Source: Bacteroidota bacterium
Lineage (GTDB): Bacteria; Bacteroidota; Bacteroidia; Cytophagales; Cyclobacteriaceae
Reading direction: 5' to 3'
Assembly (NCBI GenBank): GCA_018266055.1
Contig: JAFDYT010000016.1
Span: 60,710 to 122,911, forward strand
Length of the DNA stretch: 62,202 nucleotides
A program made the translations under genes and the position numbers. Below are positions 8,860 through 21,246 of the stretch, in pieces. Positions within the stretch are counted from its first letter, which is position 1. Every line of letters starts with the position of its first letter. The notes under the pieces are model-generated. The model was not told the DNA's origin, did not search any database, and saw nothing but the letters and a program-made list of their open reading frames with translations.

Positions 8860-10020
8860 TTAGAGGTATTTGACCACATCCGAGGACCCGATAGGGCCCT
8901 CGCTCATTATTACTAACCTTTCGGTGACATTCTTAAGTTCTCGGATGTTGCCACTCCACTCATAGTCCATCAATAAAGTAAGCGCTTCCGGATCAATTTC
9001 CTTTTTTCTGGTGCCGTAGCTTACGGAAATATCCGTTAGAAATTTATCGATCAATAAGGGTATATCGTCTTTGCGCTCTTTTAGCGAGGGCACTTTGATC
9101 ACAATTACCGATAGCCGATGAAATAGGTCCTCTCTAAAATTCCCCTGGGCAATTTCTTTTTTCAGGTCTTTATTCGTGGCAGCAATAACCCTCACATTTA
9201 CCAGAATGTCTTTTTCGCCACCTACTCTCGTAATTTTGTTTTCCTGCAAAGCCCTCAGCACTTTGGCTTGCGCCGACAAGCTCATGTCGCCAATTTCATC
9301 AAGGAATAGCGTACCCGCCTCAGCTTGTTCAAATTTCCCGATTCGCTGCTTGATTGCCGAAGTAAATGCACCCTTTTCATGCCCAAATAATTCGCTTTCA
9401 ATCAACTCGGCCGGGATGGCGGCACAATTTACTTCCACAAAAGGGTTTTTGGCTTTTGGGCTTTTCTCGTGGATTTGGCGGGCCACCAATTCTTTTCCTG
9501 AGCCGTTTGGTCCGGTGATCAATACGCGCGCTTCAGTAGCGGCCACTTTATCGATCATCTGCAATATCTCTTTAATTGGGTCTGACTCTCCCAGAATCTG
9601 ATAGTTCAGACTTACCTTTTTCTTAAGCGATGTCGCTTCTTTGAGTAGATAGTTTTTGTCCAGGGCATTTCGCAGGGTGATCAGCAGCCGGTTCAGATCG
9701 GGTGGTTTTTGTAGAAAATCGTAGGCCCCCATTTTCACGGCGTCCACGGCGAGTTCAGTGGTTCCATGCGCCGAGATCATGATAAAAGTAGTTTCGAGAT
9801 CGTCTTGCTTTGCTTTTTGCAAGATTTCCATGCCATCCATCTTCGGCATTTTGATATCACAAATTGCCACATCAAAATGATCGGCTTTTAATTTGGCCAA
9901 CCCTTCTGCACCGTCTTTGGCTTCTTCAATTTCTAGTTTCAGCTCCTTTTGGTCTTTGAGAATATCCTTGAGAACAGCCCGGATACTGGCTTCGTCTTCT
10001 ATAATCAGAACTTTGGGCAT
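8860..10020 (-). CDS. Sigma-54 interaction response regulator lacking a DNA-binding domain
   Basis: This 386-residue NtrC-type protein has a receiver domain (1-118, phosphoacceptor Asp55 in VAICDIKMPKMDG) and a sigma-54 AAA+ domain with Walker A GPNGSGKE (170-177), the sigma-54-contacting GAFTSA loop (217-222), Walker B GTLFLDEIGD (236-245) and the arginine region near 295-302. The protein stops at the end of the AAA+ lid (NIRELKNVTERL... DVVKYL), with no C-terminal Fis-type helix-turn-helix, so it presumably activates sigma-54 polymerase without site-specific DNA binding or through a partner. No cognate kinase is adjacent. A terminator separates it from the upstream minus-strand operon. Confidence 0.9.
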   Translation of the reverse strand: MPKVLIIEDEASIRAVLKDILKDQKELKLEIEEAKDGAEGLAKLKADHFDVAICDIKMPKMDGMEILQKAKQDDLETTFIMISAHGTTELAVDAVKMGAYDFLQKPPDLNRLLITLRNALDKNYLLKEATSLKKKVSLNYQILGESDPIKEILQMIDKVAATEARVLITGPNGSGKELVARQIHEKSPKAKNPFVEVNCAAIPAELIESELFGHEKGAFTSAIKQRIGKFEQAEAGTLFLDEIGDMSLSAQAKVLRALQENKITRVGGEKDILVNVRVIAATNKDLKKEIAQGNFREDLFHRLSVIVIKVPSLKERKDDIPLLIDKFLTDISVSYGTRKKEIDPEALTLLMDYEWSGNIRELKNVTERLVIMSEGPIGSSDVVKYL

Positions 10021-10062: not shown

Positions 10063-10092
10063 AAAAGCCCCTCCCGAAAGGAAGGGGCTTTT
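10063..10092 (-). terminator. Terminator of the cheR-to-ABC operon
   Basis: A GC-rich stem (AAAAGCCCCT... / ...AGGGGCTTTT, one mismatch) with a GAAA tetraloop at 10076-10079 lies just downstream of the last gene of the minus-strand run. Confidence 0.85.
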
Positions 10093-10111: not shown

Positions 10112-10540
10112 TTATCGTTTGAAGCCTAGCGCGCTGCCGCCGCATTTTTCGGAAGAACCGTCAAATGTATATTGGATATAATAAATGCCTGTAGCATTGC
10201 AGGGATAGGCGATGGCGCTGATAAACTGCCCGTTGATTTTGCTGGTGGCCACCTTATTCCGACCTGAGTCAAACAGCGTCACGACAATGCCATCAGTGGC
10301 ACTTCCGTTGGCGCAAAGATTGATCATGTATTGTGTTCCTTTGGTGAACACATAGCTATATTCCACCTTGTCTTTGGCACCGCCTTCGCCATCTACTTTA
10401 TAGCTCTTAAGGAAATTGAAGCCCGAAGCTAATTTCGGTATGCAAGCGTTGGCAAAATTATCAGGATTGCATTGGCTTGCTAAGGGTAAACTGAACCCAA
10501 TCATAGAAACCAACAACAGTGAAGAAATTACTTTTTTCAT
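10112..10540 (-). CDS. Secreted protein of unknown function
   Basis: A 142-residue protein with a Sec signal peptide (MKKVISSLLLVSMIGFSLPLASQ, cleavage near residue 22). The mature part is a small beta-rich domain with four cysteines (CNPD, ACIP, LCANG, PCNATG, plus SEKCGGS near the end), suggesting disulfides. It resembles a compact beta-sandwich of the pre-peptidase C-terminal type (VTLFDSGRNKVATS, YYIQYTFDG), but this is a loose impression. It sits last in the operon, 19 nt after the helical lipoprotein gene, so it may be a periplasmic or surface partner of the upstream ABC transporter. Confidence 0.75.
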   Translation of the reverse strand: MKKVISSLLLVSMIGFSLPLASQCNPDNFANACIPKLASGFNFLKSYKVDGEGGAKDKVEYSYVFTKGTQYMINLCANGSATDGIVVTLFDSGRNKVATSKINGQFISAIAYPCNATGIYYIQYTFDGSSEKCGGSALGFKR

Positions 10541-10559
10541 AGGGTTTTATCGTTCGGTA

Positions 10560-11465
10560 TTAGCTGGCAATTTTTTTTCTGATGGTATTGGTAATGGTGG
10601 TGATGTTCTGCACGTCCTTTTCTGTAATATCAATGGTAGTGGTACTGTTATCTTTAATAACCGCCACACCGTTTACTACTTCCATGGTCGATTCTTTATA
10701 GGTATACGTAATGTTAATTTTATCAAAAGCGGCCTTCAATTCTTCCAAATCCTTCAATAACGATGCCATATTTTCATCGTCCTTGTAAAAGGAGAATAAA
10801 AGCACGATTTGCTCAAGAATAATCTTCTGTTCGCCTATTTTTTCGCGCAGCTCCTTATTTTTTGGGTCTTTCACTGCTACTTGACAAGTGATTTGCATGG
10901 CTTCCAGCCAGCCGCCGGTGAGCAAAAGTACGCTCAGGTTTGCACGGCCCTGGGTTTGGAGGTAATGGTTGATATCGTTGAAATTCTGCGTGGTAATCAA
11001 AAGCAACGAATCGAGGTTTTTGCTGTTGGTTGCCAGCCGGCCGATGGTCTCAATATCAAAAAACTGGCCGATATTGAGCTCATTGGCCAACGATTTGATG
11101 GAAGCCAAATATTTAATGCCATCCTGGTTTTGCTGATAGATGTTGGTGTATCCCAAATCAGTACCGTAAATCCCAAGATTAAGGGCTTTTTTGTAGTTGC
11201 TGTTGTACTTGGAAAGGTTATCCGGTGTGTTGAGTAAACCAAAATTGTACTTGGTACCCGATTCTTTTAAGAGTACGGAAATCTCCAGAGGACTGGGGAT
11301 TTGCTGGAGGATGCTGTTAATGACTTCCTCGTCAATAGAAGGGCCCTTCTTAGCCGAATCCAGACTTTTCAGAAAAGCTTGTTCATCGGGCTTTTTGCCC
11401 TTGCCGCAGGCTGCTAGAAGCACTACAGCCACTAAGACAATTAATACACTTCGGATAGCTTTCAT
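10560..11465 (-). CDS. Helical lipoprotein of unknown function
   Basis: A 301-residue lipoprotein with lipobox LLAAC and lipidated Cys20, followed by a charged linker (GKGKKPDEQ) and a long mostly helical domain. Sequence such as YNSNYKKALNLGIYGTDLGYTNIYQQNQDG and LKDLEELKAAFDKINITYTYK recalls uncharacterised periplasmic lipoproteins of Bacteroidota; I know no function. The gene follows the large ABC transporter by 43 nt and precedes a secreted protein, so an accessory or substrate-handling role in export is a reasonable inference from context only. Confidence 0.75.
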   Translation of the reverse strand: MKAIRSVLIVLVAVVLLAACGKGKKPDEQAFLKSLDSAKKGPSIDEEVINSILQQIPSPLEISVLLKESGTKYNFGLLNTPDNLSKYNSNYKKALNLGIYGTDLGYTNIYQQNQDGIKYLASIKSLANELNIGQFFDIETIGRLATNSKNLDSLLLITTQNFNDINHYLQTQGRANLSVLLLTGGWLEAMQITCQVAVKDPKNKELREKIGEQKIILEQIVLLFSFYKDDENMASLLKDLEELKAAFDKINITYTYKESTMEVVNGVAVIKDNSTTTIDITEKDVQNITTITNTIRKKIAS

Positions 11466-11508
11466 TGTAGTTACAAAATTAAAAATTCAACAATGCGAAC
11501 AAAAACAT

Positions 11509-14500
11509 TTATTTCCTGCGGAATGGAATTGTGACCTTGTCAGGGATGCTCACATTTCCGAAAAATTCTACCATTCTACGCAACCACTCCAGATACAATG
11601 CCAGATAAAAGAACAATGCCATGGCCCAAACCACAAGAATATTGAAGAGGAAGGTATCCACAGTTAAACCAAACAAGTTCTTTTCCGGAAGGAAAAATGC
11701 AGTTCTGTAATCCCAAAAACCTGCCGGGCGGATTTCCTGAAAAATTGGATTGATTTGTTGGATCAGTTTTCCATCGTATTCAAGCAATCGCTCTTTTACT
11801 GACACGTTTTTCACAAGGTCACTGAGGCTTTCATTGTGGTAGCGGTTTTTCTCATCGTTTACCTTGATTCCACTTTTTTCAAAGAAAGCCATCTTCTTTT
11901 CAATGGTATCCACATTAAGGTTGTAGATTTTCTGATAGTGTTTGCGGTAGTCTTCGAAATAACTTTCCAGCATCATGCCTCTCACTTTGGTGTATTTGGC
12001 ATTCGAGAAATCCTCGTCAATGTTTGATTTCTCAAAACCTGGACGGAATGGTTCGTTTTTCAGATTATCACGAAGAATAGCGAGATTCTTGGCCACCAGT
12101 TTCTTTACAGAATCGTTTTTGCTCTCAAAATTTTCCATCACAAAGCGATTCCGGTTGCGGAGTTCGTCTGCCATGTAAGCGGCTTTGAAATCAGCTTTAG
12201 CTTCTTCTTTTTCGTAGTGATAAAATGGAGCTTCGTAGTCGTTATTTTTAAATTGATATACAGCCATGGCTTCATACGCCCAGCGCGAAGCCATCAGGTC
12301 GGCCACTACAGGTACTTTTCCTTTGGTACTGATGAGGTTATTCAATTTATCAAAACTGAAGAGCAAACCACTCAAAATCATTTGAGGGATGAGTAGCAGC
12401 GGGATCATCACATACACGGTGACGGCAGAATTAAAGGCTGAGGATATGTTCAGGCCAAGTACGTTAGCAAAACAAGAGACACTAAAAAGCACCAGCCACA
12501 TGGCCAGCGTCATGCCGTGAATTTCAAGGATGAGGTTACCGACAACCACAAACGTGATGGTTTGTATGGCCGAAAGCAAGAACAAGATGTTTAGTTTGGA
12601 CAGCAGGTAACTATTCCAGCTTAGATTTAAAAATGATTCGCGTTTCAATATTTTACGGTCGCGGATGATTTCCTCGGCACTCACGGTAAGTCCCATAAAC
12701 AATGCCACGATGATAGCCATCAGCAGGTAAGCCGGGAAGTTGTCGTTAAAGCGGAATATATATTCCTTTCCTCCAGGTGCGCTTTTGTATTTAATAATGA
12801 AGGCGAGAATAATGGCGAGTAGGGGAGCCTCCAGAAGATTGATGAGCAAATATTGCTTGTTGCTGAGCTTGGCCAGAAAATCCCGCGTGGTGAAAATCAC
12901 GGTTTGCTTCAGTTTGCTTGGGATGCGCAACGAACTTGGTGGCGTTTCCTTAATGTCTTCTACTTTGTGAATCTTGAAGCGCTCCTGGTACATTTCGTGC
13001 CATTGCGGTGGCGTTACTTTACGCTTCGAAGTAGGCTGGCCGTATTCGTCAACCACTTTAGATTCTATGATATTAAAGATTTGCTCCGGGTTTACGTTAC
13101 CGCAGGTTTCGCATTGGCCACGATTGCTGTCTACCTGATGGGTAGCTTTCTTGAAATAGGTGACGGCTTCTACCGGAGAGCCATAATAGGCCGGATATCC
13201 TCCGGTATCCATGATGATCATCTTATCAAACATTTTATAGATGTCTGACGAAGGCTGATGGATCACCACAAAGATCAACTTACCCTTTAATGAAAGTTCT
13301 TTGAGCAAGTCGATTACATTTTCTGAATCGCGCGAGGAGAGCCCTGAGGTTGGCTCGTCCAAAAACAAAATCGCGGGTTCGCGTATTAATTCCAGAGCAA
13401 TGTTAAGGCGTTTGCGCTGACCACCGCTGATCTTTTTATCAAGCACGCTTCCCACAGTAAGATCCTTACGTTGATCAAGCCCCAGGTTTTCCAAGGTGCT
13501 CATTACCCGTTCATGAAGCTGCTCTTCAGTAAAGTTGGAAAAGCAAAGCTTAGCGTTGTAATACAGGTTTTGATAAACGGTTAATTCTTCGATCAGCAAA
13601 TCATCTTGTGACACAAAGCCGATTACGCCTTCAATTTTATCTTTTTCAGTATGGATGTTAAAGCCATTGATCTTGATGTCGCCTTTCGATGGCTTCTCTA
13701 AGCCAGCCAGTGTAAGCAACAGTGTGGTTTTGCCCGCACCGCTGGCACCCATGATGCCGATGAGCTTACCCGGTCCTTCGGAGATCATTACATCGCGTAA
13801 GCCGATGGCCCCGTTGGGGAATTTGAATTCCTCAATGTTGGCATTGAACGACAACTTGGTGGTCTTGATCTCTTCGTTGAAGTGAGCTACGAGATCACTG
13901 TAGTAAAGCGCGTCGCCGGCTTGGGTTTTGATGGTGCTGCCATGCGAAAACAGATAGACCTTGTTGGGCTGCATGATGAACCCGTTGAGCACGTTGGATT
14001 GCTCACCAAGATATTTGGTGAAATACATGTCCACGCTTTTCACCCGCATGAAAATCAACTGACCTTCAATGTGGGCATGGGCATGTTTTTGATCTTCTGC
14101 CGATTTCGCTTGCGCTGAATTGACCAACAGAATATCCTTAAAATTCAGGCCTTCTACTTGCTGTGCAATGATAAATGTCTCTACCAGTTTGTACTCTTCC
14201 TGACCGATGTTGAATACGGTAGAAACGGTATTGATAATTTCAATACGCTGCGGCGTGAAGTTTTTGTCAGAGCCGATTAGCTCCAGCAATTTGGTGAGTA
14301 CTACTACTTTTTGTTTCTGAGTAAGTGTCTTGTTGATTTTTTTACAAATCCCCAACGTCTTTACCGAGTCTTTTACTGAAGTGAGTTTATTTTTTTCTTC
14401 TTCACCGGTTCCTTGCTTGCTGTATCCTGAAAAATCATCATACAGCTTCAGGTACTCCTTTACGGTGTCCTGGTCTAGTTCTTGTTGAAAAAAATTGATT

Positions 14501-14592
14501 ACAAATTGACGCTCGTTTTCTGTTACGCCACCATCTTGTTTGGTGATAATGGCAAACAGTTGCGTGAGCGCCTTTAGTATTTCCTCACTCAT
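11509..14592 (-). CDS. Large ABC-2 exporter half-transporter with TerB-like N-terminus
   Basis: This 1027-residue protein has an acidic helical N-terminal domain (1-145) that resembles TerB/DjlA-type domains, a short beta region (about 175-225), an ABCG-type ATPase (about 245-480; Walker A GASGAGKTT at 282-290, signature SGGQ at 389-392, Walker B ILFLDEP at 408-414, H-loop VVIHQPSSD) and an ABC-2 membrane domain. Membrane segments lie near 585-600, 620-640, 665-690, 697-715, 723-745 and 985-1012. Between the last two is an unusually long soluble region of about 230 residues, probably extracytoplasmic. Cytoplasmic CETCGNVNPEQIF near 494 could bind metal. ABCG-like proteins usually export lipids or polysaccharide-like substrates as dimers; the substrate here is unknown. 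The gene follows siaC by 79 nt. Confidence 0.88.
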   Translation of the reverse strand: MSEEILKALTQLFAIITKQDGGVTENERQFVINFFQQELDQDTVKEYLKLYDDFSGYSKQGTGEEEKNKLTSVKDSVKTLGICKKINKTLTQKQKVVVLTKLLELIGSDKNFTPQRIEIINTVSTVFNIGQEEYKLVETFIIAQQVEGLNFKDILLVNSAQAKSAEDQKHAHAHIEGQLIFMRVKSVDMYFTKYLGEQSNVLNGFIMQPNKVYLFSHGSTIKTQAGDALYYSDLVAHFNEEIKTTKLSFNANIEEFKFPNGAIGLRDVMISEGPGKLIGIMGASGAGKTTLLLTLAGLEKPSKGDIKINGFNIHTEKDKIEGVIGFVSQDDLLIEELTVYQNLYYNAKLCFSNFTEEQLHERVMSTLENLGLDQRKDLTVGSVLDKKISGGQRKRLNIALELIREPAILFLDEPTSGLSSRDSENVIDLLKELSLKGKLIFVVIHQPSSDIYKMFDKMIIMDTGGYPAYYGSPVEAVTYFKKATHQVDSNRGQCETCGNVNPEQIFNIIESKVVDEYGQPTSKRKVTPPQWHEMYQERFKIHKVEDIKETPPSSLRIPSKLKQTVIFTTRDFLAKLSNKQYLLINLLEAPLLAIILAFIIKYKSAPGGKEYIFRFNDNFPAYLLMAIIVALFMGLTVSAEEIIRDRKILKRESFLNLSWNSYLLSKLNILFLLSAIQTITFVVVGNLILEIHGMTLAMWLVLFSVSCFANVLGLNISSAFNSAVTVYVMIPLLLIPQMILSGLLFSFDKLNNLISTKGKVPVVADLMASRWAYEAMAVYQFKNNDYEAPFYHYEKEEAKADFKAAYMADELRNRNRFVMENFESKNDSVKKLVAKNLAILRDNLKNEPFRPGFEKSNIDEDFSNAKYTKVRGMMLESYFEDYRKHYQKIYNLNVDTIEKKMAFFEKSGIKVNDEKNRYHNESLSDLVKNVSVKERLLEYDGKLIQQINPIFQEIRPAGFWDYRTAFFLPEKNLFGLTVDTFLFNILVVWAMALFFYLALYLEWLRRMVEFFGNVSIPDKVTIPFRRK

Positions 14593-14671
14593 TCTTCTTG
14601 GATCGTAAAAATGTTATGTAAATCGTTATTTGCCTTTCGCAACTAACAATTCACGGATAACCAATAACCGC

Positions 14672-15034
14672 TTAATAAGTTTTGAATTCGAAGGGGATTT
14701 CTACCAGTTCAGAAAACTCCTGACCTGCTTCTTCCATGTCTTCATCGTCATCGTGAAAGTACCACAGCACTTTGATTCCTTTGATGTCTTCAAGAGCCGA
14801 CAAAACATCGAGGATCAGTTTTGAAGAGGCAGTATTGAAATATTCAAGTTTAAAGACAAAATCAGTTGAAGGGTTGGCGTCGCTGGCGTAAGCGCCTATC
14901 CACTCAAGTACAGGGCGGTAAAATTCGGCAGAGTCTTCGGGTAAGGAGCGGCCGCTGATTTCAAATATTCCGTTTTTCTTATCAAGCAAAATGGTGGGTG
15001 TATCTTCGGTCCCTTTGAGATTTAGGATTTCCAT
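14672..15034 (-). CDS. siaC: SiaC-like regulatory phosphoprotein (DUF1987)
   Basis: A 120-residue single-domain protein of the SiaC/DUF1987 family. In Pseudomonas aeruginosa SiaC is phosphorylated on Thr68 by SiaB, dephosphorylated by SiaA, and in the unphosphorylated form activates the diguanylate cyclase SiaD. Here the motif FKLEYFNTASSK places a threonine at exactly residue 68. The C-terminal part (YFHDDDEDMEEAGQEFSELVEIPFEF) is also family-typical. It lies 26 nt after the SiaB-like kinase. No siaD or any GGDEF gene is in the window, so its effector here must be something else; the next gene, the ABC transporter, is the obvious candidate by position. Confidence 0.87.
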   Translation of the reverse strand: MEILNLKGTEDTPTILLDKKNGIFEISGRSLPEDSAEFYRPVLEWIGAYASDANPSTDFVFKLEYFNTASSKLILDVLSALEDIKGIKVLWYFHDDDEDMEEAGQEFSELVEIPFEFKTY

Positions 15035-15060
15035 GATTAATTCAGTTTAAAATTTTTTAA

Positions 15061-15615
15061 TTATTCTTTTTCACGAGAGATGTTCACTTTCAGGCAGAAG
15101 AAGTCGAAATCTGCATCCAGGTTGGCAAAGGTGAATTCCAACTTTTCGCCCGACTTGCGCGCCATGTCCACAAACCCAAGGCCGGCGCCACCTTTATCTG
15201 ATATCTGCGTGTTTTTGATAATCTCTTTATACATTTCCTTCAACCCGTCTTTGTCTTTGCTGTTCAGGTCATTTAGGTTGGCTGTAAGTTTGGCCACATT
15301 GCCTTTGGCGATCGGGTTTCCCGTCATGACGCAATAGCGGCTGTCGTCTTTGCTGATCATGAAAATGGCACTTTTGCTGATCAGTGAGCCTACTTGCAGG
15401 CCTTGCTCGCTGCTGTGTTTTACAATGTTCTGGAGGGCCTCCACCATTACGTTAAAAACCTTGCGCTTGGTACCTGAGTCTTCGCCCGAGGAGTCCAGGT
15501 TTCGTTCCGCCATCGAAAGAATCGATTTGGTTGTTTCCTGAGTGAAGTCACCTTCGTACACCAGGATGAGTTTCTGCGCCATCATCGTGCGGTGCAGGTC
15601 GTAGATATAATTCAT
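15061..15615 (-). CDS. siaB: SiaB-like kinase
   Basis: A 184-residue GHKL-fold kinase of the SiaB family, which phosphorylates SiaC on threonine. The N-box-like helix NVMVEALQNIVKHS (55-68, with Glu60 and Asn63 in the Mg-ATP positions) and a glycine-rich lid KGGAGLGFVDMARKS (about 141-155) are present. There is no sensor domain and no His-kinase dimerisation helix, so this is a soluble partner-switch kinase. It sits between the SiaA-like phosphatase (33 nt upstream) and siaC, the same order as the Pseudomonas siaABC genes. Confidence 0.86.
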   Translation of the reverse strand: MNYIYDLHRTMMAQKLILVYEGDFTQETTKSILSMAERNLDSSGEDSGTKRKVFNVMVEALQNIVKHSSEQGLQVGSLISKSAIFMISKDDSRYCVMTGNPIAKGNVAKLTANLNDLNSKDKDGLKEMYKEIIKNTQISDKGGAGLGFVDMARKSGEKLEFTFANLDADFDFFCLKVNISREKE

Positions 15616-15648
15616 TTGCAGTGGGGTTTGAAGTTCCGAATTTATGGT

Positions 15649-18600
15649 TTAAAATTTGATTCCTATCAATAATACGTCATCTGTTTGTTTGTGCTCACCT
15701 TTCCAGGCCTCCCATTCGGTCTCAAAAACCTGGGCCGCCTCGGCCATTGATCCTTTATAAATGCGTTCAATGGTTTCGCGGGTCTTTTTAGGGCCGAATT
15801 TCCGCACCTCCGGACCACCAAACTGGTCGGGGAATCCATCCGAACTGAAGTAGAATGAATCTCCTTTGCCGAGTTCGAGACGGGTGGTGGTGAAATTGGT
15901 CTGGTTCTTATAAATACCTCCTCCGATCGGGAATTTGTTTCCTTTTACTTCGTCCATCACGCCGTTTTTCATGTAATACAGCGGGCGATGCGCGCCGGCG
16001 TACTCAACTGTGCGGGCTTCAGCATTGATGCGACAAAGGGCAATGTCCATACCGTCTTTGGTGGCCGAGTCGTCCTGATCCTGGCGCAGGGTTTGGGTAA
16101 CGCCTTCGTCGAGCAAATCAAGGATTTTTCCGGGCTCGGTAATCTTGCGGCTTCGCACGATGTCGTTGAGCAGGAAGTATCCGATCAACGAGAGCAACGC
16201 TCCGGGTACACCGTGACCCGTGCAATCCACAGCAGCAATGAAGATGTCGTTTTTGATTTGCACAAACCATGGGAAGTCACCGCTCACTACGTCTCTCGGT
16301 TTGTAAAGGATGAATGAATCAGGGAGTACTTTGTTGATCAACCTTGAGTTGGGGAGAATGGCATTTTGAATGCGCTTGGCGTAATTGATTGAATCGTTGA
16401 TCTTCTTGTTCTTATTTTGAATTTCAAGTTCAATCTCTTTGCGTTCGGTAATGTCGTGCGAAACCACCAGTACTGACTCAATGTTTTCGTTGTCGTCGTA
16501 TTCAGGAATAGCGTTTACCTGCATGATGCGCTTGCCCATTTCGGCAGGGAAATCCATTTCTGCTGACACCGTGGTTTGCGAGGCATTCACCTGCTCCACA
16601 ATCGAAAGCCACTGATCGAGGATGGCTGTATCGAGTTCTGTTTCTTTTACTTTTTTGTTTAAGAAATGGCTTGGCGACTTTCCGGTATAGGTTTCGATCG
16701 TCGGGTTGATGTACGAAATCGAATCGTGCTCCAGACGGGTGATCAAATCCGGAGAGTTTTCTGAAAGCGCCTGCATCTTGCTTCGCATGCGTTGCTCTTG
16801 TTCTGCACGGCGGCGCTCTGTGATGTCGCGTGAGTTGAGGATGTATCCGCGAATAGCGCGGTTGCTCATGAAGTTGGTACCGGTAGCTTCCAGCCAAATG
16901 AAGTTTCCGTCTTTGGTCTGGTATTCAAACTGCACGGTAAGCTTCTCGTCCGGATTTTCGCGGAGGCTTTTGAAAAGATTCTTGGCCACTTCGCGGCTTT
17001 CGGTATGGATCTTATCCATATCGCTATTGCCCTGCAGTTCTTTTTGGCTGTAGCCAAGAATAGATTCTACCGAAGGAGACACGTAGCGGATGGTTCCGTC
17101 TTCTTCGTAGATAGTAATTACCTCCGAGGCGTTTTCCAGCAGCAGCTGCATCCGCTTCTGGGTCTGATTCACTTCTTCTACCTGCTCTTCCAGCAATGCA
17201 TTGCTTCGCTTGAGTTCTTCTTGCGTAGCCTGCATCTCTTCGGCATTCTGACGAAGCACTTCCTGCTTTTCCTGCAGCTCATTACTCAGCTCTTGCGATT
17301 CTGAAAGCAGGCGGCGCGTACGTTCGTTTACTTTGATGTTGAAGATGGTGCGGGCGAGAATCAAACTAAGCTCTTGTACAAATTTCACTTGCGATGAATC
17401 GAATTTTTTCATCGACGCAAACTCCAGCAGTCCGTATACTTCTTCGTTGGTGATCAACGGCACGATCAAAATGCAATTCGGCTTTTGTTCACCCAACAAC
17501 CCAGACGTGATCGACAGATAGTCGTCTGGAATTTCCGTTCGGAGAATGATATCTTGTTCGGCAGCAGCCTGACCAACCAGGCCTTCAGCAAAGCGGAAGG
17601 TTTTCTTCAAATATTTTTTACGACTATAAGCGAAACTTGCCCTGATCTCAATGAGCATGTTGTTTCTGTCCTCTCCGTTGACATCGTAAAACACAGCCTG
17701 AACGGCGCCAATTTTTTCAGCGATGAACTTGATCACGTCGTCGCCCAACGCGTCGAGTGTGTCGTGGGCACGGAGGATTTCGGCTGCCTCGGCTACGCCT
17801 CGCACAATCCAGTTACGCTCCTTGTCTTTTCTTTCATTTTCGATAAGGTCGTCGCGCATGTGGATGAGCGCCTGACCCAACGTATCGTTTTCACTCACCG
17901 GTTGAAACGGCGCATCGAGCTTTCCTTCTCCCACGCTTTTTGCAAACTCGGCGCTGCTCTTCAGAGTCTGCACCAACGAGTTGACTTTGTCGGACATCAG
18001 TCCAAATTCATCGCGCGAGCCGGTTGAAATATTTTCTGGTAAAATACCCTGCGACACAAGGTCAAGAGTTTGACTCATCGAGTTGAGCGGTTGTGTGAGT
18101 GAGCGAGCCAAGAGCAATGCTGCAGCCCAGGCAATGAGTATTAGCGCCAGCCCGCCACCTACATAAATTTTGATGAGATCGCCGCCCTGACCGTTGATTT
18201 CTGCAGTATCAATTTTTGCGACTAAGCCCCACCCGGGTTGATTGATTTTGCGAAAAACCTTCATGGTTTCTTTTTCGCGATAATCAACTCCGATGTTGAT
18301 GCCATTCTTGCCCTCAATCGCCTGACGAATCTCTGAGCTTGCTCTATTTTTAGCGTCAAGCGGCTTGAGAAATGCACCCGGATCGTTGCGCAGCGGACTT
18401 ACAATGATCACTTTTTGCGACACAGGATCAACTTGTCCGAGATACGATTCGGCTGTTTCACCAATATGAATTTCGTTTAGTTTTTGGTAGAGAGGATTTA
18501 AGTTGACTTTGAAGGCGATAATTTTCGAATCCAAAGCAGCGGCAGCAAAAACGAAGTAGTTTTCGCCTACTTTACGCACTGCGCTTAGTTGCAATGAACC

Positions 18601-19014
18601 GGCGGCTCGGTCGAAGAAATTTTTGTCCAGGTCAGACAGATTCTGCCCTTTTTTTATTTCGCTGTCGGTAGAAACCTGTACAGTTCCGTTTTTGTCGGTA
18701 ATGTACGTTTCGCTGAAAGCGTACGTGTCTTTGATATTTTTTAATGTGTTGGCCAAGGTATCCGGCGAATTGATCACGGCTTTTACCTGATCAGAATTCT
18801 GAAGGAATTTTACCGTGGTTGATAAGTGATCAAAAAAGTAATTGACCATCACCGCTTGTTGGTCTGCCAGCGCGGTGATGCTGGCATTGAGCTTATCCTT
18901 TTCCGCTTTGACGTTTACGTTGTAGGTAAACAGTGCAAACGCTATGGCGACTACAGCTACTAGGGCAACGATCAACCCGGTAATCTTAGCGCTTAATTTT
19001 AGATTTTTGAACAT
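15649..19014 (-). CDS. SiaA-like sensor phosphatase: Cache, HAMP, GAF, PAS, PAS, SpoIIE/PP2C
   Basis: A 1121-residue membrane receptor. In order: transmembrane helix 12-31, double-Cache-like extracytoplasmic domain about 35-278 (WGLVAKIDTAE at its end), transmembrane helix 282-303, HAMP about 303-355, GAF about 410-560, coiled coil 565-620, PAS 620-735, PAS 740-858, and a SpoIIE-type PP2C phosphatase 895-1121. Metal-binding acidic residues are visible in SGDFPWF (Asp913), AAVDCTGHGVPG (Asp930), SSDGFPDQ (Asp1059) and QTDDVLLIG (Asp1112/1113). By family it would dephosphorylate the SiaC-like protein in response to an external ligand. It is much longer than Pseudomonas SiaA, having gained GAF and two PAS domains. 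Confidence 0.88.
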   Translation of the reverse strand: MFKNLKLSAKITGLIVALVAVVAIAFALFTYNVNVKAEKDKLNASITALADQQAVMVNYFFDHLSTTVKFLQNSDQVKAVINSPDTLANTLKNIKDTYAFSETYITDKNGTVQVSTDSEIKKGQNLSDLDKNFFDRAAGSLQLSAVRKVGENYFVFAAAALDSKIIAFKVNLNPLYQKLNEIHIGETAESYLGQVDPVSQKVIIVSPLRNDPGAFLKPLDAKNRASSEIRQAIEGKNGINIGVDYREKETMKVFRKINQPGWGLVAKIDTAEINGQGGDLIKIYVGGGLALILIAWAAALLLARSLTQPLNSMSQTLDLVSQGILPENISTGSRDEFGLMSDKVNSLVQTLKSSAEFAKSVGEGKLDAPFQPVSENDTLGQALIHMRDDLIENERKDKERNWIVRGVAEAAEILRAHDTLDALGDDVIKFIAEKIGAVQAVFYDVNGEDRNNMLIEIRASFAYSRKKYLKKTFRFAEGLVGQAAAEQDIILRTEIPDDYLSITSGLLGEQKPNCILIVPLITNEEVYGLLEFASMKKFDSSQVKFVQELSLILARTIFNIKVNERTRRLLSESQELSNELQEKQEVLRQNAEEMQATQEELKRSNALLEEQVEEVNQTQKRMQLLLENASEVITIYEEDGTIRYVSPSVESILGYSQKELQGNSDMDKIHTESREVAKNLFKSLRENPDEKLTVQFEYQTKDGNFIWLEATGTNFMSNRAIRGYILNSRDITERRRAEQEQRMRSKMQALSENSPDLITRLEHDSISYINPTIETYTGKSPSHFLNKKVKETELDTAILDQWLSIVEQVNASQTTVSAEMDFPAEMGKRIMQVNAIPEYDDNENIESVLVVSHDITERKEIELEIQNKNKKINDSINYAKRIQNAILPNSRLINKVLPDSFILYKPRDVVSGDFPWFVQIKNDIFIAAVDCTGHGVPGALLSLIGYFLLNDIVRSRKITEPGKILDLLDEGVTQTLRQDQDDSATKDGMDIALCRINAEARTVEYAGAHRPLYYMKNGVMDEVKGNKFPIGGGIYKNQTNFTTTRLELGKGDSFYFSSDGFPDQFGGPEVRKFGPKKTRETIERIYKGSMAEAAQVFETEWEAWKGEHKQTDDVLLIGIKF

Positions 19015-19025
19015 ACCTGTTTTCT

Positions 19026-19820
19026 TCAGCTTATCTCTGCTATTACAATGCCTGCTTCGGTGGCCTGCTTCTTTATCGACTCGTTCAGCGGTGTGAAAGT
19101 GGCCAACTCTACTACACCGACTACCTCATTTTCTTTTTTCAAAGGCAGGATGAACAAAAATTTGGGGAGTGCGCTGCCAAGTCCGCTTTCAATGCGGCGT
19201 GCATAGCCTTCCGGCAACTCGTCGAGGTAAAGGCTCTTGCCCGATGCTGCCGCCTGACCAATGAGTCCTTCGCCCCAGAGGAAAGACGGGTTTGATTCGC
19301 CTTCGCCCAACACCAGCGCGTAACTGCTTTGAAGTTCTATTGATTTCTGATTGCCTTTGCTTTGTGCAATGTATAAGGCGCCTTGGCCTGCATTTAGGCT
19401 GTTGCAGAGGTGATTAAGCGCTTCCTGCCATTTCTCTTCACGGACTTTGGCTTTCGAGATTTTTTCTTTCAACGCCTTCACGTCCACTCCACCAGTTGTG
19501 CTGCTATCTGCGCTACCCACTGATTGCTGATTTTTCTCTTCCGCTTTTTTGTCGAGGTACACGATGATTTCTTTCTTCGATTTGCGTGTGTAGTGTACCG
19601 CGGCGTAGCAGAGTGCGAAAGCAAGCGCGATGACTACATAAAGTTTAGTGAATACCAGGGTGGCGCCGCCCGTGTTCATTACACCGCCCTGATACACCAA
19701 ATCGTTGGGCAGACGGAACAAGTAAATGGTAGCAATCACCACGGCCACAAAAAAACCAACTATGGCCAACTGGTTTACTTTGGCCGGATCCTTAAAAAAC
19801 AACTGTAGCTTCTCGATCAT
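19026..19820 (-). CDS. Two-helix membrane protein with cytoplasmic GAF domain
   Basis: A 264-residue protein with transmembrane helices at about 18-36 and 56-77, a charged coiled linker (about 78-128) and a C-terminal GAF domain (about 130-262). The GAF contains GEGLIGQAAASGKSLYL and PKFLFILPLKKENEVVGVVELA, closely matching the GAF of the neighbouring SiaA-like protein (AEGLVGQAAAEQD... NCILIVPLITNEEVYGLLEFA). It has no catalytic output domain and so may act as a co-sensor or adaptor. It overlaps the end of cheB by 4 nt (ATGA), which indicates translational coupling. Confidence 0.8.
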   Translation of the reverse strand: MIEKLQLFFKDPAKVNQLAIVGFFVAVVIATIYLFRLPNDLVYQGGVMNTGGATLVFTKLYVVIALAFALCYAAVHYTRKSKKEIIVYLDKKAEEKNQQSVGSADSSTTGGVDVKALKEKISKAKVREEKWQEALNHLCNSLNAGQGALYIAQSKGNQKSIELQSSYALVLGEGESNPSFLWGEGLIGQAAASGKSLYLDELPEGYARRIESGLGSALPKFLFILPLKKENEVVGVVELATFTPLNESIKKQATEAGIVIAEIS

Positions 19821-20410
19821 CGGTAATATTTGTCTAATTCGTTTATCAATGTGACAATTTCATCGACTTTAAGCACATGGTCGATTTTAGTGAGTGCCAT
19901 GGCCGCTTTTGGCATTGTGTCAATCATGCATTCCGACGGTTCCTGTACAATCGTCAGCCCGCCTCTGTCTTTAATGTGTTTCATGCCCATGCCACCATCG
20001 CGATTGGCTCCTGACAGAAGGATTCCAATCAGCTTGTCGCGGTACACGTAGGCGGCAGTGCCCAGCGTGATGTCTATGGCAGGCCGCGAATTGTTCATCA
20101 TTTCCTCGGTACTCATGGCAAAATAGTTTCCTAACTCCACCGACATGTGGTAGTTGGAAGGAGCGAGGTAAACCCCACCTTTCTTTATTTGCTCTTTGTC
20201 GTACGGTTCTACCACAGGAAACACACTTTTTATAGACAGCGCTTCAACAAATCCATTGCGTACATGCTTTAACCGGTGCAGGCACATGATTATGGGCAGA
20301 GGAAAAGTCTTAGGTAACTGAGATAAAATCTTTGTAATACCCTGAAAACTTCCGGCCGACCCACCAATGACGATGGCCTTGTAGCTATTATTTAGGTTGA
20401 ACCTTCCCAT
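19817..20410 (-). CDS. cheB: Stand-alone CheB methylesterase domain
   Basis: A 197-residue CheB catalytic domain with no receiver domain. The catalytic triad is visible: Ser18 in IGGSAGS, His45 in MCLHRLKH and Asp138 in SGANRDGGMG. CheB removes methyl esters from (or deamidates) glutamate side chains of chemoreceptors. No chemoreceptor, CheA or CheW is in the window, so the target is unknown; coiled-coil glutamates of the adjacent SiaA-like receptor are a possible target by context only. Loss of the receiver domain means it is not controlled by the usual phosphorelay. It follows cheR by 11 nt and overlaps the GAF gene by 4 nt. Confidence 0.92.
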   Translation of the reverse strand: MGRFNLNNSYKAIVIGGSAGSFQGITKILSQLPKTFPLPIIMCLHRLKHVRNGFVEALSIKSVFPVVEPYDKEQIKKGGVYLAPSNYHMSVELGNYFAMSTEEMMNNSRPAIDITLGTAAYVYRDKLIGILLSGANRDGGMGMKHIKDRGGLTIVQEPSECMIDTMPKAAMALTKIDHVLKVDEIVTLINELDKYYR

Positions 20411-20421
20411 GGGTCCTCTGC

Positions 20422-21246
20422 CTAATCTTTTATTTTTTTATAAACCTTTTCCTCATTGTTCACCACCAAAAACCGGTTGGCCACATCACACCAGATCAGC
20501 GACTCTTTCGAGCCAATGGCCAGGTATCCATATTTAAATAAGCTCTCGTGAAATTTCTTGAGCACTTCGTTTTGCAGGTTTTGGTTGAAGTAGATCATCA
20601 CGTTACGACATAAAATCAGATCGAATTTGTTGAAGATATCGCCGGTGACGAGATCGTGCTTCCGGAAGGTAACATTGGCCAAAAGCCCTTTATCGAAGGT
20701 GACTTTCCCGTTTTCCTCCTTACAATAGTCCTTCAAAGTCCATTTGCCTTCAAATCGAATGTAGTTCTTCTCATTCAGCTCCATGTTTTTGGCCGGATAG
20801 GTGGCCATCTTAGCTTTTTCAAGAATGGTGGTATCCAGGTCTGTGGCATAAAGCGACACATCGTTGTGAATACCCATTTCTCTGAGCAAAATGGCCATGC
20901 TTAGCACTTCTTCGCCGGAAGAGCAGCCGGCGTGCCATATATTAAAAGTCTTGTGGTTTAATAAAATACCGGGGATGATCTCATCGCGCATGACGCGCCA
21001 GAAACTTGGGTCGCGAAACATCTCGGTGACGTTCACGGTAAGTTCGTCCAGAAACTCATTAATAAAGGTGGGCGAATCGTTCAGTTTTCTAATCAGCGAC
21101 TCAACGGTGAGGTTTTTAAGTTCAAGGATCCTAAGCATCCTTCTTTTAAAGGACGACATGGCATAATTCCTGAAGTCGTACCCATATTTTGCCTGGATCA
21201 GCTCAGTGATTCGTTTAAGATCCGCAATATCGATGTCCTGTATCAC
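20422..21246 (-). CDS. cheR: CheR-type protein-glutamate methyltransferase
   Basis: A 274-residue CheR with the helical N-terminal domain (about 1-70), the VTEMFRDPSFW motif (73-83) that links the domains and the SAM-binding loop GCSSGEE (107-113). CheR methylates receptor glutamates with SAM. The start is GTG at 21246 (MIQDIDIADLKRIT). It is first in a tightly spaced nine-gene minus-strand run with cheB, GAF, siaA-like, siaB, siaC and the ABC transporter. No PAS or coiled-coil extension is fused, in contrast to many multidomain Bacteroidota CheBR hybrids. Confidence 0.92.
   Translation of the reverse strand: MIQDIDIADLKRITELIQAKYGYDFRNYAMSSFKRRMLRILELKNLTVESLIRKLNDSPTFINEFLDELTVNVTEMFRDPSFWRVMRDEIIPGILLNHKTFNIWHAGCSSGEEVLSMAILLREMGIHNDVSLYATDLDTTILEKAKMATYPAKNMELNEKNYIRFEGKWTLKDYCKEENGKVTFDKGLLANVTFRKHDLVTGDIFNKFDLILCRNVMIYFNQNLQNEVLKKFHESLFKYGYLAIGSKESLIWCDVANRFLVVNNEEKVYKKIKD

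Follow-up and report, generated by a model that had tools for sequence, protein, structure and literature searches.

The window analysed here, a stretch of 62,202 nucleotides of contig JAFDYT010000016.1 from a Cyclobacteriaceae genome (Bacteroidota; assembly GCA_018266055.1), carries nine open reading frames (ORFs) between positions 10112 and 21246, all on the minus strand, that combine a SiaABC-type phosphorylation switch with an ATP-binding cassette (ABC) transporter. Read from 21246 to 10112, they encode CheR, CheB, a GAF protein, a SiaA-like phosphatase, a SiaB-like kinase, SiaC, the transporter, a lipoprotein and a secreted protein, with intergenic gaps of -4 to 79 bp. A first-pass annotation, made from the letters alone, had described nine tightly ordered minus-strand genes, and the ORFs lie where it placed them. 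Its calls of cheR, a receiver-less cheB, SiaA, SiaB and SiaC homologues with Thr68 and an ABC-2 transporter are also borne out, by matches to the Pfam and NCBIfam models used to assign domains to the window ORFs and by an alignment at Thr68. The nine genes appear to form one signalling-to-transport operon, and their joint conservation in distantly related Bacteroidota suggests a transporter as the target of a switch that in Pseudomonas is known to control biofilms.

The SiaA-like phosphatase (1121 amino acids; 15649-19014) has the architecture dCache-HAMP-GAF-coil-PAS-PAS-SpoIIE/PP2C, with a dCache match of 29.5 bits that lies under its cut-off of 45. Metal-binding aspartates of PP2C phosphatases are in place (SGDF, DCTGHG, SDG and TDD); across 73 SiaA sequences, the four patterns are matched 71, 73, 67 and, for the last in its strict form, 36 times. 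The SiaB-family kinase (DUF6272; 184 amino acids; 15061-15615; NF038262 at 179.8 bits, cut-off 85) has E59 within the motif ExxQN, which is present in 77/77 SiaB proteins, and matches 6kko_A with an E value of 7.5e-12. SiaC (120 amino acids; 14672-15034; PF09345 at 130.4 bits, cut-off 24.5) matches 6kko_C with an E value of 1.2e-14. Its predicted phosphosite, Thr68 (codon 14831-14833), aligns with T68 of Pseudomonas aeruginosa SiaC, and the motif YxNT is kept in 81 of 83 transporter-linked SiaC. All three proteins miss the NCBIfam equivalog cut-offs (SiaA 214 of 700 bits, SiaB 84 of 225, SiaC 84 of 150) and are, by sequence, homologues of the Pseudomonas proteins rather than equivalogs by these cut-offs. 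The genome has one SiaC only; other genomes have several paralogues, partly in tandem (15 matches in G364, the genome of locus L138, and 10 in G007).

Excerpts of the published accounts describe P. aeruginosa SiaABCD as comprising a PP2C phosphatase, SiaA, a kinase, SiaB, and SiaC with Thr68 (PMC7647112, PMC8457831). As far as those excerpts go, all three features are shared with the operon, whose SiaC and SiaB are homologous to the 6kko chains. Unlike SiaABCD, the operon contains no SiaD cyclase, and none was found in the genome; its SiaA has a dCache-GAF-PAS-PAS sensor region, and cheRB, the GAF protein, the transporter, the lipoprotein and the secreted protein are added.

The transporter (1027 amino acids; 11509-14592) matches Pfam TerB, ABC_tran and ABC2_membrane. 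Its nucleotide-binding domain lies ahead of its transmembrane domain within one chain with an ABCG fold, as in ABCG-type transporters, and both are preceded by TerB and an FHA-like region. The TerB domain (residues 1-145; 14158-14592) reaches 31.6 bits against PF05099 (cut-off 24.4), a model that matches 54/54 transporter N termini at E values up to 0.5; its top structural matches are PG1108 and a COG3793 protein. Residues 150-245 (13858-14145) are predicted to fold as an FHA-like beta sandwich (predicted local distance difference test score of 89.5; Foldseek/VIA matches of moderate strength), with a weak sequence match to the FHA domain of MEK1. FHA domains usually bind phosphothreonine through the motifs GR, SxxH and NG; save for one LNG, these are not evident at the level of a 54-sequence consensus of the region, and the motifs give no support for it as a canonical phosphothreonine reader. 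A large insertion of predicted helices, presumably periplasmic, precedes the last transmembrane helix (residues 786-945; 11758-12237). The N-terminal TerB and FHA-like domains and this long insertion set the protein apart from the ABCG half-transporters ABCG2, ABCG5/8 and ABCG25. Rv1747 of Mycobacterium tuberculosis also resembles ABCG transporters. Two paralogues in the same genome (G000:C4:7920-10967, locus L092, and G000:C20:515233-518289, locus L093) have no siaC nearby, and L092 has a lipoprotein homologue directly upstream. In L114 (10001-13081) and L125 (1-2842), the transporter is read as two ORFs, which may be genuine or a sequencing error.

A sample of 60 genomes from the family, with that of the window among them, has the transporter at 59% identity or more in 29, of which 26 carry siaC immediately upstream in the same orientation. 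Between the matched stretches of the two genes lie 37-186 bp in 25 genomes and 733 bp in one, in which the transporter match begins at residue 162. Of the remaining three, one starts at a contig end and two (G006 and G014) have no siaC upstream. The 54 weaker transporter matches, which comprise paralogues and fragments, all lack a same-strand siaC within 2 kb. We also annotated 110 loci using the window proteins (30 cut out around the best matches, the other 80 being named loci of a genome collection); some are cut by contig ends, 12 are paralogue rows and the pairs L075/L108, L077/L111 and L079/L118 are identical. SiaC directly precedes the transporter in 83 of these loci; SiaB is also present in 77, SiaA in 73, CheB in 62, CheR in 61 and all nine genes in 58. 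The operon spans Cytophagales and Bacteroidales, with named loci that include Fulvivirga, Marivirga, Nafulsella, Cesiribacter, Splendidivirga, Persicobacter and Flexithrix and, in Bacteroidales, Marinilabiliaceae and Salinivirgaceae. It is rare in a broad sample of the phylum, in which SiaC was found in 18 of 296 genomes and the transporter profile, in a search that scored just two candidates per genome, in 6 of 296. Gene order is conserved far beyond chance. An unconserved neighbourhood had been named beforehand as a possible refutation of the first-pass reading; the transporter and cheRB proved to be conserved with siaABC.

The absence of a cyclase, noted at the outset for the operon, extends to the genome. 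No GGDEF domain was matched there (completeness given as 100) by a search that was positive in 8 of 14 control genomes, and a SiaD-type cyclase elsewhere as the partner of SiaC, likewise named beforehand as a possible refutation, was rejected on this count. GGDEF is absent from 57 of the 60 family genomes searched; one of the other three, G016, has the operon. Cyclic di-GMP is therefore an unlikely output of the operon.

Evolutionary patterns, with the exceptions given below, suggest that SiaC docks on the transporter. In two reduced loci (L105, 6037-10972; L112, 9606-14461), cheRB, the GAF gene, siaA and siaB are gone and a diverged SiaC remains between a deaminase gene and the transporter. 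A search for the SiaB family that was positive for L102 and L157 gave nothing in the genomes of L105, L112, L106, L113 and L160. Between the SiaC genes of L105 and L112, divergence is 0.12 at nonsynonymous sites (dN) and 1.78 at synonymous sites (dS), with dS near saturation and the ratio therefore rough; to judge from these values, the kinase-less SiaC beside the transporter is under purifying selection. Thr68 is replaced in L106, where SiaC lies at a contig edge, and in L160, where it looks decayed; the sister locus L113 has lost SiaC recently.

The transporter shows a corresponding pattern, which we scanned in 82 rows linked to siaC and ten without siaC upstream, leaving out the 12 paralogues and the contig-edge rows L134 and L138; the accompanying tree holds 106 of the 110 loci (transporter over 900 amino acids). 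In the ten rows without siaC upstream, divergence-corrected mean conservation over the 1027 residues is lowest at residues 81-120 of TerB (14233-14352), with a mean z of -2.45; the 0.1% quantile of 2000 draws, each of ten linked rows taken from their more diverged half with relatedness ignored, is -1.28. Leave-one-out fits with 40-residue windows place the minimum at 81-120 in six of the ten (L085, L088, L090, L123, L140 and L146). All six have a mean z of -2.5 or lower within 76-140 and none of the 82 linked rows falls below -2.1; the lowest window lies anywhere in 66-150 in seven of the 82 linked loci. With 30-residue windows, the minimum is in TerB for five of the six decayed loci (not L090) and also for L135, a locus in which siaBC adjoin the transporter in inverted order. 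With 60-residue windows, L090 is lowest elsewhere and the minima of the other decayed loci shift between 61 and 165.

Charge and conservation together mark residues 81-120, including R116, as the predicted docking site. Residue 116 is arginine in 81 and lysine in one of the 82 linked rows and is glutamate or aspartate in 12/12 paralogues; the ten loci without siaC upstream have glutamate in four, lysine in two and arginine in four. The segment carries a mean net charge of +5.0 when linked to siaC (82 rows), against -3.0 in the paralogues; the six decayed loci average +2.0 and the other four +4.2. Linked SiaC, the group compared, has a mean net charge of -20, with -16 for the protein of the window. 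On the SiaC side, the columns that best separate transporter-linked SiaC (the diverged L105, L106, L112 and L160 set aside) from 29 other SiaC are 31, 11, 69, 34, 106 and 111, and columns 31, 69 and 106 correspond to the P. aeruginosa SiaD-contact residues Y31, S69 and E110. This enrichment in contacts is modest and uncorrected (p = 0.02 for the top six columns, 0.09 for ten, 0.06 for fourteen and 0.04 for eighteen), and one of the 'other' SiaC, L194, sits inverted beside the L135 transporter.

Several observations weigh against this coupling. Four of the ten loci without siaC upstream (L113, L135, L167 and L179) lack the decay of 81-120 at 40-residue windows, the six that have it represent three lineages on the tree, and at 60 residues L085 (-1.6) falls inside the linked range (down to -2.7). 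A SiaC elsewhere in the genome accompanies the non-decayed L167 and L179 but also the decayed L123, L140 and L088, and does not sort the exceptions. Arginine or lysine persists at residue 116 in six of the ten. The orphan SiaC evolves faster than the SiaC of intact operons. TerB and the FHA-like region are also present in paralogues, one of which (L178, 3665-7161) has a convergent SiaC-like ORF just downstream and another of which (L168) has a siaABC-like cluster some kilobases away in the same locus. In P. aeruginosa, D79, E110 and D114 of SiaC are bonded to SiaD side chains, mostly arginine and lysine, according to an excerpt of the published account (PMC8457831); the counterparts here are S79, E106 and L110. 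The match between a basic segment and an acidic SiaC is an analogy, not a conserved interface, because only E110 among those acidic contacts has an acidic counterpart. The first-pass idea that SiaC gates the transporter through its TerB-like N terminus gains evolutionary support, to which the four loci without the decay are exceptions.

We put the probability of the model as a whole, a SiaABC switch acting on the transporter, at roughly one half; the linkage of siaC to the orthologous transporter, the loci with all nine genes, the lack of a GGDEF match and the single SiaC of the genome also speak for it. SiaA would sense periplasmic and cytoplasmic cues through its Cache, GAF and PAS domains and remove phosphate from phosphorylated SiaC, and SiaB would rephosphorylate SiaC at Thr68. 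Unphosphorylated SiaC would dock on the basic TerB segment 81-120 and switch the activity of the transporter, in a manner resembling the binding of SiaC to the SiaD stalk, and phosphorylation would release it. By reversible methylation of glutamates, CheR and CheB would probably adjust how sensitive the SiaA/GAF sensor pair is, which is the weakest step. An envelope substrate may be handled by the transporter together with the lipoprotein and secreted protein. We infer the direction of gating, the transporter substrate and the CheR/CheB target. A bolder form of the model, a Ser/Thr partner switch with the transporter as its direct output, in which unphosphorylated SiaC clamps the TerB domain of a TerB-FHA-ABCG exporter and a chemoreceptor-free CheR/CheB gives the phosphatase sensor a methylation memory, is put forward tentatively.

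The strongest competing explanation is that SiaABC controls an unlinked target and that the transporter is merely co-transcribed, being needed under the same condition. Cassettes of transporter, lipoprotein and secreted protein without siaABC (L085, L088, L090, L113 and L146) indicate that the transporter can work alone and speak for this explanation. We nevertheless consider it unlikely: a kinase-less SiaC has been retained beside the transporter, siaBC (L135) or siaC (G104) adjoin the transporter even in rearranged order, and segment 81-120 decays in the majority of loci without siaC upstream.

A second alternative assigns phospho-reading to the FHA-like domain, which would bind phosphorylated SiaC, phosphorylation turning the transporter on or off. 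The FHA-like fold at residues 150-245 and its weak MEK1 match favour this alternative, and a precedent exists: in M. tuberculosis, the FHA I domain of Rv1747 recognises pThr237 on Rv2623, as an excerpt of the report states (PMC5549992). Rv1747 has one or more FHA domains N-terminal to an ABC transporter and its function is modulated through threonine phosphorylation, again according to excerpts (PMC3908365, PMC5549992). As far as these sources describe the Rv1747 system with PknF and Rv2623, the shared feature would be an N-terminal FHA-type domain; unlike Rv1747, the transporter here combines TerB with a single FHA-like domain, and its switch is SiaABC, not PknF. We regard phospho-reading as improbable, given that the expected motifs, one LNG excepted, are not evident and that it is TerB, in its second half, that decays rather than the FHA-like region. 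Reverse flow, in which the transporter senses flux or substrate occupancy, sequesters SiaC and reports to the switch, would produce the same contacts and genetics, and ABC transporters serve as flux sensors for some two-component systems. Yet it too is improbable: SiaA already has sensor domains of the Cache, GAF and PAS types, the operon offers no other recognisable output gene, and transporter cassettes exist without siaABC.

Taken together, the evidence points to a SiaABC partner switch whose likely output is a transporter. In the excerpts of the literature considered, a diguanylate cyclase is the one worked-out target of the SiaC family, and DUF1987 proteins in general were suggested to modulate 'adjacent proteins' in an eLife paper (PMC8457831); here the adjacent protein is a transporter. 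With that neighbour, no cyclase found in the genome and a predicted docking segment of 40 residues, the role of other SiaC proteins becomes directly testable. Among the open-licence PMC papers listed, titles and abstract openings yielded none on this operon, which is not proof that it is unpublished; one paper came up under DUF1987 and nothing under DUF6272.

CheR (274 amino acids; 20422-21246; GTG start; PF01739 at 155 bits, and PF03705) retains an intact S-adenosylmethionine (SAM) motif, AGCSSGEE. CheB (197 amino acids; 19817-20410) consists of the methylesterase domain alone, without a receiver (PF01339 at 165 bits over residues 13-188); S18, H45 and D138, which we take to be its catalytic triad, sit in the usual motifs. 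The 264-residue protein that follows (19026-19820) has a C-terminal GAF domain (PF13185) and membrane helices discerned by eye, and its GAF is homologous to that of SiaA (BLASTP, 27/83 identical, E = 1e-10). The first-pass annotation had counted two GAF-bearing membrane sensors; two proteins do have GAF domains, but one of them is the SiaA phosphatase itself.

The methyltransferase, the methylesterase and their motifs are shared with chemotaxis adaptation. Unlike that system, the operon has no methyl-accepting chemotaxis protein (MCP), CheA or CheW among its proteins in a Pfam scan, its CheB has no receiver and a separate chemotaxis cluster has its own CheR. Of the two CheR matches in the genome, one is in the operon and the other is in this cluster, on contig C10, together with the only MCP match of the genome, two CheW-domain proteins and ORFs that resemble, by eye, CheA, CheY and a full CheB. 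The operon cheRB is therefore a second pair, and we rejected it as the sole chemotaxis pair of the genome.

As candidate substrate of CheR and CheB we propose, on grounds of conservation, the SiaA coiled coil LRQNAEEMQATQEEL (residues 561-625; 17140-17334), which lies between GAF and PAS and is among the best-conserved stretches of SiaA outside the phosphatase domain. Similar coils occur in GAF/PAS sensors of other operons (L064, L157 and L161). Loci with cheB keep the second Glu/Gln pair of the SiaA coil in 56 of 62 cases, those without in two of seven (Fisher p = 0.0007); the first pair, with a weaker contrast, is kept in 53 of 62 versus four of seven. The seven cheB-less loci collapse to two independent events on the tree and the correlation is then not significant; we rejected it as evidence and keep it as a lead at most. 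The strict MCP-type methylation consensus, searched in its usual form, occurs in two of 73 SiaA and one of 63 GAF proteins, at scattered, inconsistent positions. The proposal that methylation tunes the sensor stays weak, although the operon cheRB stands apart from the chemotaxis cluster. If true, machinery of adaptation would here serve outside chemotaxis to adjust the gain of an export pump, and the operon allows CheR/CheB action away from chemoreceptor arrays to be tested.

The SAM motif is kept in 41 of 61 CheR taken next to CheB. In the Bacteroidales loci L124, L128, L157, L161 and L176, it is altered in the CheR that adjoins CheB and intact in the other, upstream CheR; the altered copy is possibly a pseudo-enzyme. 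The longer operon of L157 encodes a full CheB with receiver, a GAF/PAS protein, two CheRs, CheB, GAF, SiaA, SiaB, SiaC, transporter, lipoprotein and secreted protein.

At the distal end of the window operon, the lipoprotein (301 amino acids; 10560-11465) has a Cys20 that is invariant across 29 aligned homologues and is read as a lipobox, and the secreted protein (142 amino acids; 10112-10540) has a signal peptide read by eye. Neither reaches a Pfam cut-off among the matches listed, and a lipoprotein profile found nothing credible in the PDB (best E value 0.003, to a kinetochore subunit, taken as chance).

A strong terminator-like hairpin of the intrinsic type (13 pairs; 10063-10092, minus strand) lies directly 3' of the last gene, and none of the 17 hairpins listed falls in the gap between siaC and the transporter; 15.6 hairpins are expected from shuffled sequence, and the shorter ones therefore carry little weight. 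Behind the hairpin, 91 bp past the last gene, starts a response regulator with a sigma-54 AAA+ domain (386 amino acids; 8860-10020), for which no DNA-binding helix-turn-helix is among the Pfam scan matches. Among the annotated loci, it adjoins the operon end only in the window and the near relatives L102, L103 and L155. The operon probably ends with the last of the nine genes because the hairpin precedes the response regulator, whose position only few relatives share; we rejected the latter as a tenth gene on the same grounds. In L075, L083, L108, L110 and L116, a second SiaA/SiaC/SiaB-like cluster lies directly downstream of the operon, and its SiaB-like protein is 366-367 amino acids long in L108, L110 and L116.

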